Origin: a virus
Length of the DNA stretch: 22,802 nucleotides
Strand: one strand, 5' to 3'
Virus record (IMG/VR): IMGVR_UViG_3300033146_001356
Span: 1 to 22,802 of that record
Shown here one piece after another: positions 80-21,095 of the stretch. The notes beneath the pieces are model-generated. The model was given only the letters and a program-made list of their open reading frames with translations. It did no database searches and had not been told where the DNA came from. Position numbers and translations under genes: made by a program. The number at the start of each line of letters is the position of its first letter. Within the stretch, counting starts at the first letter, position 1.

Positions 80-964
80 ATGAGATCGTTTAAAAAATTT
101 ACTAATATAGATGAAGCCTTAATTACAGTAGGAAAAAAACCATATCCAAAATTTGATAATGTTGTGATATTGGCTGGTGGAGCTGGAAGTGGAAAGGGAT
201 TTGTTACATCAAATCTAATTGCTATTGATGCAAAGGTATTTGATGTTGATGAAGTAAAACAGTTTATTCTAAAAATGCCTAATCTTAGAGTTGCTTTCAA
301 GGATGTTCTTGAAAATATGTATAAATCAGGAAAGATTAATTATGTTCCTGATGTTGATGATCCGAAAGTAAGAGCTACTATTCTAAGAAAACCAATATAT
401 GTTTCGGCTCTTCATATGGCCGCAACAAAAATAAATTTACCGGGTCGTTTGGAAGATAAGTTTTTTGCTGGTATGATTGATAAGGAAAGAAAGCCGAATA
501 TTATTTTTGATGTTACCTTGAAAAATATGACAAAACTTCATAATATTTCTCATAAATTAACAACACATGGGTATAAAAAAGAAAATATTCATATTGTATG
601 GATCGTCAATGATATTAAAGTGGCTATAAAACAAAATCAAGAAAGACCACGAGTTGTTCCTGAAGATATCTTGATTGATACACATAAAGGTGCATCGCAT
701 ACTATGGCTGATATTATAAAAATGGGAAATAATGTAAAACAGTATATTGATGGGGATATAATAATTGTTCCTAATAAAAAAAATGTAGATTCTAAATATA
801 TTCCATCTCCAAATAAAGGGGGTAATGGTGACGCTGGCTATTTTATATTTGCTGATTATTATAAGATCAAAGAAAAAGGAAAAGCGATTGACATTAAAAA
901 AATGACAACCGCTTTAACTAAAGAGATTATTAAATATGTTCCGAAAGATACTTTTAAAGTCTAA
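80..964 (+). CDS. P-loop (zeta-toxin-like) kinase, possible head-packaged protein
   Basis: A 294-residue protein with a nucleotide-binding loop at residues 33-40 (GGAGSGKG, preceded by VVILA). The loop ends GKG rather than GK[ST], as in adenylate-kinase-type loops. A FDVDEVK motif follows at 54-60, and an IIFDVTLKN segment in the middle resembles the second conserved strand of zeta-toxin/PNK-like kinases. The substrate is unknown. The N-terminus MRSFKKFTNIDE|A resembles the T4 internal-protein capsid-targeting peptide followed by an I-x-E cleavage site for the gp21 protease; this is inference. The ATG has AGGA six bases upstream. The last 11 bases overlap the end of a convergent minus-strand gene. 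Kinase-fold assignment is fairly secure; specific function is not. Confidence 0.75.
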   Translation: MRSFKKFTNIDEALITVGKKPYPKFDNVVILAGGAGSGKGFVTSNLIAIDAKVFDVDEVKQFILKMPNLRVAFKDVLENMYKSGKINYVPDVDDPKVRATILRKPIYVSALHMAATKINLPGRLEDKFFAGMIDKERKPNIIFDVTLKNMTKLHNISHKLTTHGYKKENIHIVWIVNDIKVAIKQNQERPRVVPEDILIDTHKGASHTMADIIKMGNNVKQYIDGDIIIVPNKKNVDSKYIPSPNKGGNGDAGYFIFADYYKIKEKGKAIDIKKMTTALTKEIIKYVPKDTFKV

Positions 965-7262: not shown

Positions 7263-7523
7263 TTGAAATTCTATAATGAATTTATATCAGAGTTGACTAA
7301 TCAATTTTATGATTATAGTCGAATGTCTATTATCCTTGAAAGTGAGGATAATTGTGTTATTGATGGTATTGAAATTGTTCGTAATAAAATTGCCACTATA
7401 CAACGGTATTACGAATCTACAAATGATTTTAACCGTACTAAATTGACAAAAATGATAAATAACAATGTACATAATGTTGATGTTGTTTATGAATTAATTT
7501 TAACTATAAATGGAGCAAAATAA
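7263..7523 (+). CDS. small protein at the gene 68 position (TTG start proposed)
   Basis: A reading frame ending at 7523, overlapping the protease start by one base (TAATG). An upstream ATG at 7215 would place it 47 bases inside gene 67. A TTG at 7263, just after the gene 67 stop, has GGAC seven bases upstream and gives an 86-residue product starting with M-K-F-Y-N-E-F; ATG at 7323 is a third choice. The product is Asn/Ile/Tyr-rich with predicted helices and no known motif. T4 has prohead core gene 68 at this position (141 residues), so a functional counterpart is possible, but I see no convincing sequence match. Confidence 0.55.
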   Translation: MKFYNEFISELTNQFYDYSRMSIILESEDNCVIDGIEIVRNKIATIQRYYESTNDFNRTKLTKMINNNVHNVDVVYELILTINGAK

Positions 7524-8188
7524 TGGCATTTTTAATAGTAGAAGATAACTTTGACCAGATTGAGTCAGGTGTTATTATTGATGAATCTACTCAAAGTAAA
7601 AAATATTTTATTGAAGGAATATTTCTTCAAGCAGAACAAAAGAACAGAAATGGTAGAATTTATCCGGCAAGTATTCTTGAAAGAGAAGTTACTAGATATA
7701 CAAATGATTATATCAATAAAAATCGTTCATTAGGTGAATTAAATCATCCAAAATCACCTTCTGTTGATCCAGAAAGAGCTTGTCATTTTATTAAATCTCT
7801 TCATAGAGAAGGTAATAATTGGGTTGGTAAATCTCAAATTACATCTACTCCGGTTGGTGATATTGTTAAGGGATTGCTTGATGATGGGGTTCAACTTGGT
7901 GTATCTTCAAGAGGTCTTGGTACTCTTTCTGAAAGAAGTGGAGTTAAGATGGTTAATGAAGATTATTATATGAGTACAATTGATGTAGTTTCTGATCCAT
8001 CTGCGCCTGAAGCGTGGGTAAATGGTATTTATGAAGGTAAAGAATGGGCGGTTCAGGGTGAAGAAGATTTTATTGAAAAGGTAAAAAAACAAATTGATAT
8101 TGAAGCAGGAAAAATTGGTTTTTCTGCTGTAGAAGAATTTATTTTAATGGAAAAAATGAATACATTTTTTGATCATATTAATAAATAG
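7523..8188 (+). CDS. 21: prohead core protease gp21
   Basis: The serine protease that cleaves scaffold, capsid and internal proteins, generally after (I/L)-x-E, during head maturation. Its 221 residues compare with 212 in T4. Family motifs are KNRNGRIYP (residues 40-48), GELNHP with the probable catalytic His at 75, and GVSSRGLG with the probable catalytic Ser at 128 or 129. DVVSDPSAP at 154-162 matches the conserved acidic/proline block. GGAG lies seven bases before the ATG, which overlaps the preceding stop. It sits between the prohead core genes and the scaffold gene, as in T4. Confidence 0.95.
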   Translation: MAFLIVEDNFDQIESGVIIDESTQSKKYFIEGIFLQAEQKNRNGRIYPASILEREVTRYTNDYINKNRSLGELNHPKSPSVDPERACHFIKSLHREGNNWVGKSQITSTPVGDIVKGLLDDGVQLGVSSRGLGTLSERSGVKMVNEDYYMSTIDVVSDPSAPEAWVNGIYEGKEWAVQGEEDFIEKVKKQIDIEAGKIGFSAVEEFILMEKMNTFFDHINK

Positions 8189-8473: not shown

Positions 8474-9229
8474 ATGGCAGACGAAAAAAAAGGTATTGAA
8501 ATTTTATTTGAAGATGAATCTCTTCAAGACCTGTCTGAGGACTTCAAAACAAAAGCAACTGTGATTTTCGAGACTGCTGTTGCGAAAGGTGTTCAGGAAG
8601 AAAAACAGGCTTTAGAAGAAGAGTTTGAAGCAAAACTTGAAGAAAGTAAAAAAGAACTTTCTGAAAAATTGGAAGAGCAAGTTGATTCATATTTGACTTA
8701 TGTAGTTGAAGAATGGATGTCTGATAACAAACTTGCTGTTGATGCTGGTATTAAGACAGAAATTGCTGAACATTTTATGACAGGAATGAAAGAGCTTTTT
8801 GAAGAAAGTTATGTTGAGGTTCCAGAAAATAAAGTTGATGTTGTTGCTGATATGACAGAACAACTGGAAGAAAGTGAAGATAGACTCAATGATGCTATTA
8901 ATGAGAATATTGAACTTGCCGCTGAACTGAAAGATTTCAGAAAATCATTTATCATAATTGAAGAAACTGATGGTCTTGCTGACAGCGAAATTGATAAAAT
9001 TGAAAGTTTTATCGAAATGGTTGAATTTGAAGATGAAGAAAGTTATCGTTCTCAAGTAAAATCTATTATTGAAGCATATACTGGTAAAGATGATGAAAAG
9101 AAAGATGATGATGCTGATGATAAAGATGATAAGAAGAAAGGTAAAGATGATGATGGAGATGATGATGAGAAAAACGAAAGTGTTAATTTTTACGCCTCTG
9201 CTATAAGCAATGGCCGTAAAAGTTTCTAA
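8474..9229 (+). CDS. 22: major prohead scaffold core protein gp22
   Basis: The scaffold that fills the prohead and is degraded by gp21 before packaging. Length 251 residues (T4: 269). The N-terminus (LFEDESLQDLSEDFKTKATV) and the following long Glu/Lys-rich helical region (residues about 45-75 and 120-150), with the VDSYLTYVVEEWMSDN block, match the family. Residues about 195-235 form an extremely Asp/Lys-rich tail, ahead of a conserved-looking C-terminus ending NGRKSF. Many (I/L)-x-E sites are present, consistent with complete degradation. AAGGAG lies six bases before the ATG. Confidence 0.9.
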   Translation: MADEKKGIEILFEDESLQDLSEDFKTKATVIFETAVAKGVQEEKQALEEEFEAKLEESKKELSEKLEEQVDSYLTYVVEEWMSDNKLAVDAGIKTEIAEHFMTGMKELFEESYVEVPENKVDVVADMTEQLEESEDRLNDAINENIELAAELKDFRKSFIIIEETDGLADSEIDKIESFIEMVEFEDEESYRSQVKSIIEAYTGKDDEKKDDDADDKDDKKKGKDDDGDDDEKNESVNFYASAISNGRKSF

Positions 9230-9260: not shown

Positions 9261-10634
9261 ATGAATGAACATTTAACACCTGAACAAATTCAGGAAAAGT
9301 GGAAACCAATTCTGGAACATGAAGAGATTTCCGAAATCAAAGATAATTATCGTAAAAGAGTAACTGGTATTCTTTTACAGAATGAAGAAGAAGCTCTTAA
9401 ATCAGAAGCAAATATTTCCGAAGCTCCTACAAACGTAATTGGTGGTATGGATAAGTATGATCCTGTCCTTATCTCCATGGTAAGACGTTCTGTACCTGCT
9501 ATGCTTGCTTTTGATATTTTTGGCGTTCAGCCAATGAAAATGCCTACTGGCTTGATTTTCGCAATGAGAGCACAATATGGTTCACAACCTGCGGTTGGTG
9601 AAGATACTACAGCAAATGAAGCACAATTCCATGAAGCAGATTCCGGTTTTTCTGGTGCGCCTCGTGATCCAGCTTCTCCGAATGCTGGTAAGGGTACTGA
9701 ATTTCCTTCTGGTTATACTGGAACAGCGAATGATAAACCTACTCCTGCATCTTCCGATGCTACCTTGACTGATCCATTTTCAGTTGACTTCGGTTATGGT
9801 GTTGGTATGGATACAAATCTTGCTGAAACTCTTGGTGAAGATACTGAATGGGCTAAAATGTCATTCACAATCGAGAAATTGTCCGTTGAGGCTAAATCTC
9901 GTGGTTTAAAATCTGAATACTCTGTTGAATTGGCACAGGACTTGAAAGCAGTTCATGGTCTTAACGCAGAGCAAGAGCTTGCGAATATTCTTTCAACTGA
10001 AATCATTTCTGAACAAAACCGTGAAGTTCTTCGTAGAACTTACAACATGGCTGTTCTTGGTTGTCAGAATTCTGATATTGCTACTCCGGGTTCATATGAC
10101 CTTGATGTTGATTCAAATGGTCGTTGGTCTGTTGAACGTTTCAAAGGTTTGATGTTTCAAATCGAACGTGAAGCAAACGCAATCGCAATCGAAACTCGTA
10201 GAGGTAAAGGTAACTGGATTGTATGTTCCGCAAATGTAGCTTCTGCTCTTGCTATGACAGGTCTTCTTGATACTGCTGGTAATACAAAAGTTACTCCGGG
10301 TACAGTTGATCCTGTTGGTAATCTTTTTGTTGGTGTAATGAACGGAATGATTCGTGTTTATGTTGATCCTTATGTAACTATTGATATGTGTGTTGTTGGT
10401 TACAAAGGTGCTAATGCGTATGATGCTGGTGCTTACTATTGTCCATACGTTCCATTGACACTTTACAAAACTGTTCATAGCGATAGCTTCCAGCCTCGCC
10501 TTGGATTCAAAACTCGTTACGCAATTGGGGCTAACCCATTCGTAAGAGAATACTCCGGTGGTTCTTTTAACACTGGTCTTGAAGCACGTAAGAACATTTA
10601 CTTCCGTATCTTTAAGATTGAAAATCTTATGTAA
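9261..10634 (+). CDS. 23: major capsid protein gp23
   Basis: The hexamer-forming capsid subunit. The block VLISMVRRSVPAMLAFDIFG followed by VQPMKMPTGLIFAMR is a signature of T4 gp23, as are the NREVLRRTYNMAV region, GRWSVERFKGLMFQIEREAN and the C-terminal KTRYAIGANPF. The length of 457 is shorter than T4 (521). The N-terminal propeptide is predicted to be removed by gp21 at N-I-S-E54|A55, so the mature chain would begin APTNVIGG. AGGAG is eight bases before the ATG. A strong terminator with a TTCG loop follows 35 bases after the stop. Confidence 0.97.
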   Translation: MNEHLTPEQIQEKWKPILEHEEISEIKDNYRKRVTGILLQNEEEALKSEANISEAPTNVIGGMDKYDPVLISMVRRSVPAMLAFDIFGVQPMKMPTGLIFAMRAQYGSQPAVGEDTTANEAQFHEADSGFSGAPRDPASPNAGKGTEFPSGYTGTANDKPTPASSDATLTDPFSVDFGYGVGMDTNLAETLGEDTEWAKMSFTIEKLSVEAKSRGLKSEYSVELAQDLKAVHGLNAEQELANILSTEIISEQNREVLRRTYNMAVLGCQNSDIATPGSYDLDVDSNGRWSVERFKGLMFQIEREANAIAIETRRGKGNWIVCSANVASALAMTGLLDTAGNTKVTPGTVDPVGNLFVGVMNGMIRVYVDPYVTIDMCVVGYKGANAYDAGAYYCPYVPLTLYKTVHSDSFQPRLGFKTRYAIGANPFVREYSGGSFNTGLEARKNIYFRIFKIENLM

Positions 10635-19335: not shown

Positions 19336-19875
19336 ATGATTACTAATATTGTTGGTGTTTATCCTCTTTCTGAAGAGGCTACTATTCCTTTTTTGGGAAC
19401 TGAATTAAGTGCTTGTCATGATGTATGTGCTTGTCTTCATAATGAGACTGTAAGATTTCATGGAAGAGCTGAAGGTATTAAAGTTGAAAAATTTGGAACT
19501 CGTGATGCTTTTATTCGTCTTTTTCCTGATGATATGGCATTAGTTCCAACGGGATTAATTTTTTGTTTACCAAGAAAATATTTTCTTGATATTCGTTCTC
19601 GTTCTGGTAATACATGGAAACGGTTTTTGACTGTTGCGAATCAGCCGGGTACAATTGATTCAGATTATACGAAGGAAACATTTGTTCTTCTTCAAAATCG
19701 GTCTATGAATCCTCAAATTATTAAAACTGGTGATGCTATTGCTCAATGTAAATTGACTGAAAGAATTCCTGCTGAATTTATTCCAATAGATAAAGATCAA
19801 TTTAATTTCTTTTGTGAAGATGTAAAACAGGATTCGGGTCGTGATGGAGGGTTGGGATCAACTGACAAAACATAA
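19336..19875 (+). CDS. dut: dUTP diphosphatase (dUTPase)
   Basis: It hydrolyses dUTP to dUMP, preventing uracil incorporation and feeding thymidylate synthesis. The conserved motifs appear in order in 179 residues: motif 1 (SACHDVCA), motif 2 (RSRSG), motif 3 (GTIDSDYTKE), motif 4 (ALIGNED around GDAIAQCKL) and motif 5 near the C-terminus (RDGGLGSTD). These match the trimeric all-beta dUTPase family; a dCTP deaminase is less likely given the full motif 5. AAGGAG precedes the ATG. It takes the place of gene 43 behind regA. Confidence 0.92.
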   Translation: MITNIVGVYPLSEEATIPFLGTELSACHDVCACLHNETVRFHGRAEGIKVEKFGTRDAFIRLFPDDMALVPTGLIFCLPRKYFLDIRSRSGNTWKRFLTVANQPGTIDSDYTKETFVLLQNRSMNPQIIKTGDAIAQCKLTERIPAEFIPIDKDQFNFFCEDVKQDSGRDGGLGSTDKT

Positions 19876-19903
19876 ATAATAGTATTAACTAAAAGAGGAA
19901 AAA

Positions 19904-20485
19904 ATGAGCGAAAATGCGTATTGGCTAACTCCACAAGGAAAATTAATAAAGCCTAAATCAAGACATATAATTACTGTTGTTAAAAATCCAACACAGTTTG
20001 GTGAAACAAAAAAGTCTCTTCAGACTACTTTTGATAAGTATAATGAACAGATGAATAGTAATATAGAAGGAAAAGCAAGAGAAGAAATTTTATTGAGGGT
20101 TATCAAACGTGGTTTCGCTCGTATTCGTTTAGGGGGAACAAAAAGAAATCAACGATGGTCTATTCAATTAAATAGGCTTACTTCTAAATTGGAAGATGCT
20201 TTATGGCAATGGGCAAATCAGATTATTAAAGACGGTTCGGCTCCTGATAAATATGCTGATGTTATTATTCATCAAATAGGAAAGGGGGATAAAATGACAA
20301 GAACTGATTTAAATACGATTGCTGAAGGTGGTGATATAAAAGAGCAAAAAGAATTTATTAGGATTTATGAGGAAGATGAGGTGAAAGATTTGCCTCGTTG
20401 GGTTGATTATGCTCATGAAATTGATCCTAAATCTCTTTCAGAACAGGCTAAAATCGAGATATTAGCTCATAGATTTAGAGGATAA
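19904..20485 (+). CDS. conserved phage hypothetical protein, 193 aa
   Basis: I do not know its function. It begins YWLTPQGKLI and carries EGKAREEILLRVIKRGFARI, then WSIQLNRLTSKLEDALWQWA, a pattern I have seen in uncharacterised proteins of large phages. It is basic in the middle and acidic towards the end (RIYEEDEVKDLPRWVDYAHE). No catalytic motif or membrane segment is visible. GAGG lies six bases before the ATG. An imperfect late box (CATAAATA, about 19871-19878) overlaps the dut stop codon. It is followed with a one-base gap by the 202-residue gene, so the pair probably acts or is expressed together. Confidence 0.7.
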   Translation: MSENAYWLTPQGKLIKPKSRHIITVVKNPTQFGETKKSLQTTFDKYNEQMNSNIEGKAREEILLRVIKRGFARIRLGGTKRNQRWSIQLNRLTSKLEDALWQWANQIIKDGSAPDKYADVIIHQIGKGDKMTRTDLNTIAEGGDIKEQKEFIRIYEEDEVKDLPRWVDYAHEIDPKSLSEQAKIEILAHRFRG

Positions 20486-20486
20486 T

Positions 20487-21095
20487 ATGAAAACATTTAA
20501 ACAAAATTTAAACGAATCTTCATTATCAAGATTATGGACACATAATAACGATCATGAATGTGCGGCTTTAACAGCTTTTCGAGTTGCTTCTGATTGTGGA
20601 AAGGGTGGTGAATATTCTCATAAGGATAATCAAAAACGGAATAAATCACTCAAGGCAAAATTACTTAGTCTTGGATATGGTGTAACTGTTTTGAAAGGGA
20701 AATATCCCGAAGGTGGAAAGACTGCTATAGAAGATTCTTTTTTTGTTGTAAATCTTAATGATGATAAAAGATTCTTTAAGATTATAGCTAAACTTGGTGA
20801 GAATTTTGAACAAGATTCTGTTCTTTTGATTCCACGGGGTGCGATTAATAATGAAGCAAAGGCTTATTTGTATGGTACGAATCATTGTTCAAATAATTGG
20901 TTAGGATATCATAAAAAAGAACCATTTGCAAAAGGAAAACTTGGAAAAACCAGTAAAATATATACATCATACGTTGGTAAAAGACCATTTATTTTTGAAA
21001 AGATAGATGAAATATGTATATTACCAGCAAGCGGTATGGGTCGATGGATGTTAAATCTTGTTGCCGAAGAGGATTGGGAAGATTTGGAAATTTAG
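20487..21095 (+). CDS. putative internal head protein with capsid-targeting N-terminus, 202 aa
   Basis: The first ten residues, MKTFKQNLNE, parallel the ten-residue T4 capsid-targeting peptide MKTYQEFIAE, including a Glu at position 10 preceded by Leu at position 8, the (I/L)-x-E site for the gp21 protease. The mature part would start SSLSRLWTHN. The remainder has LTAFR, LLSLGYGVTVLKGKYPEGG, EDSFFVVNL, DSVLLIPRGA and RPFIFEKID, a layout like uncharacterised DUF3293-type proteins (from memory, uncertain). GAGG lies five bases before the ATG. It ends the long operon and is followed by a strong terminator. Packaging is an inference from the N-terminus. Confidence 0.7.
   Translation: MKTFKQNLNESSLSRLWTHNNDHECAALTAFRVASDCGKGGEYSHKDNQKRNKSLKAKLLSLGYGVTVLKGKYPEGGKTAIEDSFFVVNLNDDKRFFKIIAKLGENFEQDSVLLIPRGAINNEAKAYLYGTNHCSNNWLGYHKKEPFAKGKLGKTSKIYTSYVGKRPFIFEKIDEICILPASGMGRWMLNLVAEEDWEDLEI

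Follow-up and report, generated by a model that had tools for sequence, protein, structure and literature searches.

The stretch of DNA analysed here, called the window, is the complete 22,802-base IMG/VR record IMGVR_UViG_3300033146_001356; the genome is known here from this 22.8-kb fragment. One of its genes (20487..21095, plus strand) encodes a protein of 202 amino acids. We propose that this protein is probably an S-adenosylmethionine (SAM) lyase that is directed into the phage head by a T4-type capsid-targeting propeptide and is injected into the host cell. The proposal is built on the sequence of the protein, its family, fold and active-site residues, the invariance of its residue Glu-10, a prohead protease encoded in the same genome and the presence of the same tag on published virion-borne proteins, all of which are observed. 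An earlier note, made from the DNA letters alone, had suggested a capsid-targeting peptide and a gp21 cleavage site on an injected anti-defence effector, and this is still the best-supported reading.

The body of the protein shows similarity to SAM lyases. Residues 42-146 match the Pfam family PF23780 (S-adenosylmethionine lyase) with an E-value of 1.7e-12 and 47.8 bits against a cut-off of 28, which is likewise passed by the homologues from S-CREM2, the Campylobacter phage, the Lak phage and GAP227. The score for DUF3293 (PF11697) is 23.4 bits against a cut-off of 25, a below-threshold relationship only. The single 202-aa protein found no match in a sequence search of the Protein Data Bank, and no relative when used as query against bacterial and archaeal genomes. 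A profile of 14 relatives matched the solved structures of the T3 SAM lyase (7ock, E 0.004) and of Svi3-3 (6zm9, E 0.08), and its alignment to the T3 enzyme places the G-x-Y-x-E and E-Q-D blocks in register. A fold model from the single sequence was discarded for its low predicted local distance difference test score (pLDDT 33), and a model built from 47 aligned sequences was used instead (pLDDT 70, predicted template modelling score 0.72). This model matches the T3 SAM lyase with a Z-score of 12.2 over 130 residues and Svi3-3 with 7.5 over 111, while PII/CutA-like folds plateau at Z 5-6, under both. Foldseek also ranked the two SAM lyases at the top, with modest E-values. The activity of Svi3-3 requires Glu69, and its Gly56, Tyr58 and Gln104 surround the ligand (PMC7877911). 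The counterparts of Gly56, Tyr58, Glu69 and Gln104 in the window protein are G71, Y73, E82 and Q109. The active-site segment G71-x-Y73-x-E75 ... E82-x-S84 (codons 71-84) is encoded at 20697..20738 (plus strand); G71, E75 and E82 are invariant among 55 aligned sequences and Y73 is found in 52 of them. Q109 (20811..20813, plus strand), the equivalent of the SAM-binding Gln104 of Svi3-3 (PMC7877911), is invariant in all 55. By all tests run, namely profile, active-site residues and fold, the protein is assigned to the SAM lyase family. The earlier note was right that the body does not resemble any T4 internal protein: no internal-protein family is among its Pfam or PHROGs matches, and it is not homologous to IPI, IPII or IPIII. 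Its treatment of the body as unrecognised does not hold.

The substrate might differ from free SAM even if the protein is packaged and cleaved as proposed. One candidate is SAM-AMP, which serves as the messenger in some type III CRISPR systems. The lyases that cleave it have the same fold and the same catalytic Glu and Gln, and for one phage enzyme SAM-AMP, but not SAM, is a substrate (PMC12255297). SAM-AMP lyase and AcrIIIB4 likewise belong to the PII-like trimer family; they differ from the window protein in substrate, and the phage enzyme also possesses its own N-terminal domain. We regard such a substrate as improbable, as the PF23780 cut-off is passed and the top fold match is the T3 SAM enzyme, although family and fold cannot discriminate between these substrates.

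The protein starts with MKTFKQNLNE↓SSLSRLW, where the arrow marks the predicted cut. Codons 1-10 (20487..20516, plus strand) encode the predicted capsid-targeting propeptide, which is in register with T4 ipII and ipIII and with relatives of the window protein; F4 is assigned to targeting, and L8 and E10 to cleavage. The predicted gp21 cleavage motif, L-N-E, is encoded at 20508..20516 (plus strand), and the predicted mature chain begins at Ser-11 (SSLSRLW). Compared with T4 MKTYQEFIAE, taken from ipIII, residues M1, K2, T3 and E10 are identical and F4/Y4 and L8/I8 are conservative, as had been stated in the earlier note. It left unmentioned the mismatch at position 7, where the window protein has Asn and T4 has Phe. 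T4-type internal head proteins have a propeptide of 10-19 residues with an aromatic residue at position 4 and an (I/L)-x-E gp21 site at its end, and the phage encodes a gp21-type protease and a gp22-type scaffold. In the window protein position 4 is Phe and the propeptide closes with L-N-E10. The gp21 homologue named in the earlier note is indeed present: a Peptidase S77 prohead protease is encoded at 7523..8188 (plus strand; PF03420, E 5.3e-37; phrog_207), and the gp22-type scaffold, on which the propeptide presumably docks, at 8474..9229 (plus strand; PF25623, E 1.3e-66). Mutagenesis in T4 has shown that 4 and 7 are the two main positions for targeting, and that positions 8 and 10 serve in cleavage (PMC9026906).

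The conservation of the propeptide was assessed in the 55-sequence alignment and in 54 distinct metagenomic relatives that were collected with a pattern derived from the body of the protein. Unbiased counts come from these loci (L021-L100). One pattern used for a further set (L127-L206) contained MKTFKEFL, so that the N-terminal agreement there is partly selected. Only five columns are invariant among the 55 aligned sequences: E10, G71, E75, E82 and Q109. Glu-10 is located outside the Pfam domain, in a stretch that the model leaves unordered (residues 1-11; average pLDDT 34 over residues 1-10), yet it is as fixed as the active site. Position 8 is Leu or Ile in 51 of the 55. Numbered back from the predicted cut, all 54 distinct relatives have Glu at P1 and 48 have Leu or Ile at P3; P4 is mostly Phe, Ile or Tyr, and 28 have Trp, Phe or Tyr at P7. 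Of the 50 unfused distinct relatives, 28 are aromatic at P7. T4 MKTYQEFIAE has Y, F, I and E at P7, P4, P3 and P1. Conserved relatives without Glu-10, which the earlier note had named as evidence that would speak against it, were thus not found among the 54 distinct non-truncated relatives. The anchoring of the Glu was checked for circularity, and the motif was missing only in loci truncated at a contig end. Relatives such as MKTFKEFLEE, MKQFKEYLQE and MKDYKQFINE share the register of the window protein. The propeptide ranges in length from 7 to over 30 residues, most often 10, and therefore the position of the Glu is tied to SSLSR and not to the start codon; the [L/I]-x-E↓SSLSR junction does not move. 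In a marine clade, MKT[FY]xxF is anchored at the Met and [LIVM]xE at SSLSR with a variable spacer between them, as in MKTFKEFLEE↓SSLSR, MKTFKEFCSQLDE↓SSLSR and MKTYSEFMLECSQVQE↓SS. This split corresponds to the T4 division of labour between positions 4/7 and 8/10 (PMC9026906).

A distant relative of the window protein has been found in virions. ORF6 of the cyanophage S-CREM2 was detected with 19 unique peptides and 26.3% coverage by mass spectrometry of CsCl-purified virions, and its authors proposed that it protects against restriction and enters the host cell (PMC10665884). The ORF6 product is a PF23780 member, starts in the T4 register with MKDFDSFLEE and has the LxE↓SSLSR junction in the form LEE↓SSLSR; unlike the window protein it has 414 residues, a long C-terminal extension and a propeptide of 20 residues. 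Virion presence is established for this relative only, and the packaging of the window protein is predicted. Capsid targeting is not mentioned in the text of the S-CREM2 paper (PMC10665884). The 219 coding sequences of S-CREM2 were translated and tested for the tag. The pattern F..F[LIMF].E within the first 30 residues is found in six proteins, five of which are virion-detected (p 0.003; p 1.8e-5 among non-structural proteins), p-values that are optimistic because the pattern was framed after the N-termini had been seen. The five are the lyase, a Cas9-like nuclease, a kinase, ORF136 and a cytidylyltransferase. Three S-CREM2 N-termini fit a relaxed tag, against 0.06 expected from internal positions. 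The pattern M[KR][TS]F-x(3,7)-[IL]xE, which the earlier note had put forward for a search, has no match in S-CREM2 and fails in that position 3 must be free. As a predictor, [IL]xE alone was rejected; such triplets are common and did not predict virion detection in S-CREM2 (p 0.10). In the virion-detected Cas9-like nuclease (gp12 of S-CREM2, OR473000; L014), the core motif FASFMAE is found at residue 19 and not near the start, which may be annotated too far upstream.

Several observations weigh against packaging of the window protein. The chief weakness is the Asn at targeting position 7, where a hydrophobic residue would be expected of a T4-type internal head protein; it is shared with one relative (L021), while most relatives have Phe, Tyr, Ile or Leu there and 37 of the 50 unfused relatives a hydrophobic residue. 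The lyase gene is placed among replication genes. The exact late promoter TATAAATA is absent between 16747 and the lyase gene, and the closest upstream site is a weak 7/8 match at 19871-19878. This site precedes gene X, the gene that lies immediately before the lyase gene, by 25 bases. SSLSR after the Glu is also conserved, with S11, L13 and R15 kept together with E10, and on the model part of this conservation may serve the fold of helix 12-22. Three relatives (L029, L030 and L034), in which a relative of the gene X product precedes the lyase in one fused protein, are devoid of the MKTF part. The S-CREM2 authors warn of possible co-purification (PMC10665884), and a partial check in S-SCSM1 found one of two tagged proteins annotated as virion proteins (an NMNAT, MKSFLQFLKE), which is not significant.

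Some of these points would fit a SAM lyase that is expressed early and remains unpackaged, as in T3, its ten N-terminal residues being accidental or structural with Glu-10 capping helix 12-22. The position of the gene among replication genes, the joint conservation of E10 with S11, L13 and R15 and the retention of E↓SSLSR in the fusions without the MKTF part are all in its favour. It leaves unexplained why MKT[FY]xx[FY] stays at the start codon while the spacer behind it varies, why the same peptide is found on unrelated proteins and why the S-CREM2 enzyme is detected in virions. Furthermore, the homologue of the T7-like podovirus GAP227 manages without helix 12-22: it starts with MFTVFLSAFR (MFTVFLSAFRGE) and lacks both the extension and the helix. 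We consider early expression without packaging unlikely. No match to the S77 protease was found in the GAP227 genome. The protease is present in 12 of the 14 searched records that hold a relative, that is, in the window and in 11 of the 13 others, including Campylobacter phage CP20 and a 541-kb Lak phage; the two records without a match are virus contigs that may be incomplete.

Gene X (19904..20485, plus strand) encodes a protein of 193 amino acids that is related to the N-terminal part of the L029 fusion (43% identity). The three fusions retain [VI]-x-E↓SSLSR without MKTF, and the targeting and the cleavage part are therefore separable. The fusions may be polyproteins that are cut by the prohead protease, or their junction may be structural. 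L030 contains two lyase-like domains, each behind an [IV]xE↓SSLSR junction.

The proposed route of a packaged and injected SAM lyase is as follows; docking, cleavage, injection and activity are inferred for the window copy. The part of the propeptide with F4 and position 7 would attach the protein to the gp22 scaffold core inside the prohead. Cleavage by the gp21 protease behind L-N-E10 would follow, and the mature chain from Ser-11 to Ile-202 would be retained in the head with the DNA. Upon infection the enzyme would enter the cell along with the genome and split SAM into methylthioadenosine and homoserine lactone, a reaction that the SAM lyase family carries out as a trimer. SAM would be depleted ahead of phage gene expression, and SAM-dependent defences, such as type I and type III restriction-modification and BREX, would be weakened.

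The protein would work in the manner of a T4 internal head protein while being no homologue of IPI-III. The internal proteins of T4 vary in everything but the targeting sequence (PMC3012670; PMC12373910). The ten-residue N-terminal peptide, the aromatic residue at position 4, Ile or Leu at 8, Glu at 10, gp21 and gp22 in the genome and a presumed injected anti-restriction role are common to both; the window body is an unrelated enzyme, and its position 7 is Asn. T4 internal proteins inhibit GmrSD enzymes (PMC12373910), whereas the window protein would act via SAM. The T3 SAM lyase and Svi3-3 share the fold and the active-site residues with it, but the T3 enzyme is expressed early instead of being packaged and has no such propeptide. 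The DarB protein of the phage P1 Dar system is also a virion-borne anti-restriction protein sent to the capsid by its N-terminus (PMC9024508); it is unrelated, and its authors found no consensus among Dar N-termini. The T4 targeting sequence on variable cargo was already known, as was the suggestion of a SAM lyase in S-CREM2 virions; what is added here is the connection of the two. If the proposal is true, the phage delivers a ready-made enzyme that removes the cofactor of many host defences and bridges the interval from the entry of the DNA to the first expression of genes. The tag also allows injected phage proteins to be read from sequence, which has long been difficult outside the T-even phages. 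Virion mass-spectrometry data that already exist can serve to check the resulting list (SAM lyase, NMNAT, kinases, pyrophosphatase).

To assess how general the tag is, the DNA pattern for MKx[FY]xx[FY][hydrophobic]xE was scanned in 16 phage records with a reversed-pattern control. The tag exceeds chance expectation, with 18 matches against 0 for the reversed pattern; one of the 18 contains a stop and is spurious. Because of N7, this strict pattern misses the window lyase itself. A looser pattern, with any residue at 7 and a K or R-like codon at 2, was dropped (31 matches, 4 control matches). The named matches are T4 ipII, ipIII and gp61.1, the S-CREM2 lyase and cytidylyltransferase, the S-SCSM1 NMNAT and the P-TIM68 cytidylyltransferase. 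The others include an inorganic pyrophosphatase, a DUF6267 protein, a Zeta-toxin-like kinase and several unknowns. These matches bear on the possibility that the extension of the window protein is a folding or oligomerisation propeptide, removed by gp21 or another protease, with no role in packaging. The fused relatives keep the cleavage site only, and N-terminal residues of Svi3-3 join the trimer contacts (PMC7877911), as might be expected of such a propeptide. Against it, the part with the aromatic residue and position 7 fits the positions used for targeting in T4 and is seen again on NMNATs, on kinases and on further enzymes, and the NMNATs that bear the tag are virion-detected. We judge a role in folding or oligomerisation alone to be very improbable, slightly more so than a substrate other than SAM. 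T4 gp61.1 (NC_000866 18966-19130, minus strand; L103), a hypothetical protein of 54 residues, starts with MKTFKEFIKE↓D, which is a perfect capsid-targeting sequence; in the literature searched we found no paper that describes this protein as an internal one.

The Zeta-toxin-like kinase among the matches is a relative of a window protein (80..964, plus strand; PF06414, E 4.6e-7; phrog_5268) whose gene adjoins the tail sheath gene and which carries a second candidate tag, MRSFKKFTNIDE↓ALITVGG. Its relatives start with MRSFKSYLSE, MKSFKDFVSLDE↓ALITFGG, MKNFKQYLTE and MKTFNEFISE, and show the same split, in which the MK[ST]F part stays in place and [IL]xE moves. Two of them (L213 and L217) have an intein-like insertion in the P-loop (GGAG/C...S/GKG). 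Among four tagged metagenomic phage proteins (L115, L117, L119 and L120), there is an inorganic pyrophosphatase, a domain common to DarB-like proteins; by eye, two are ADP-ribosyltransferase-like and one is ParB-like. It is conceivable, and we suggest it tentatively, that T4-like phages far from the T-evens use a general two-part code, in which MK[ST][FY]xx[FY] loads and [IL]xE releases rotating unrelated enzymes (SAM lyase, NMNAT, Zeta-toxin-like kinase, inorganic pyrophosphatase, ParB-like proteins and others), and that the fusions of protein X with SAM lyase, of which one contains two lyase domains, are polyproteins that the prohead protease cuts apart.

From its genes, the source of the window is a T4-like phage. 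We take the gene order to be tail sheath, tube, portal, gp21 protease, gp22 scaffold, gp23 capsid, UvsW, gp47/46, clamp, clamp loader and dUTPase, several of these names being given by sequence recognition. Exact T4 late-promoter motifs TATAAATA are located at 1582, 5229 and 8430, directly upstream of the sheath, portal and scaffold genes. The gp23-type major capsid protein (9261..10634, plus strand; PF07068, E 7.5e-131) contains a candidate maturation site of the same type as that of the lyase, I-S-E54↓AP.
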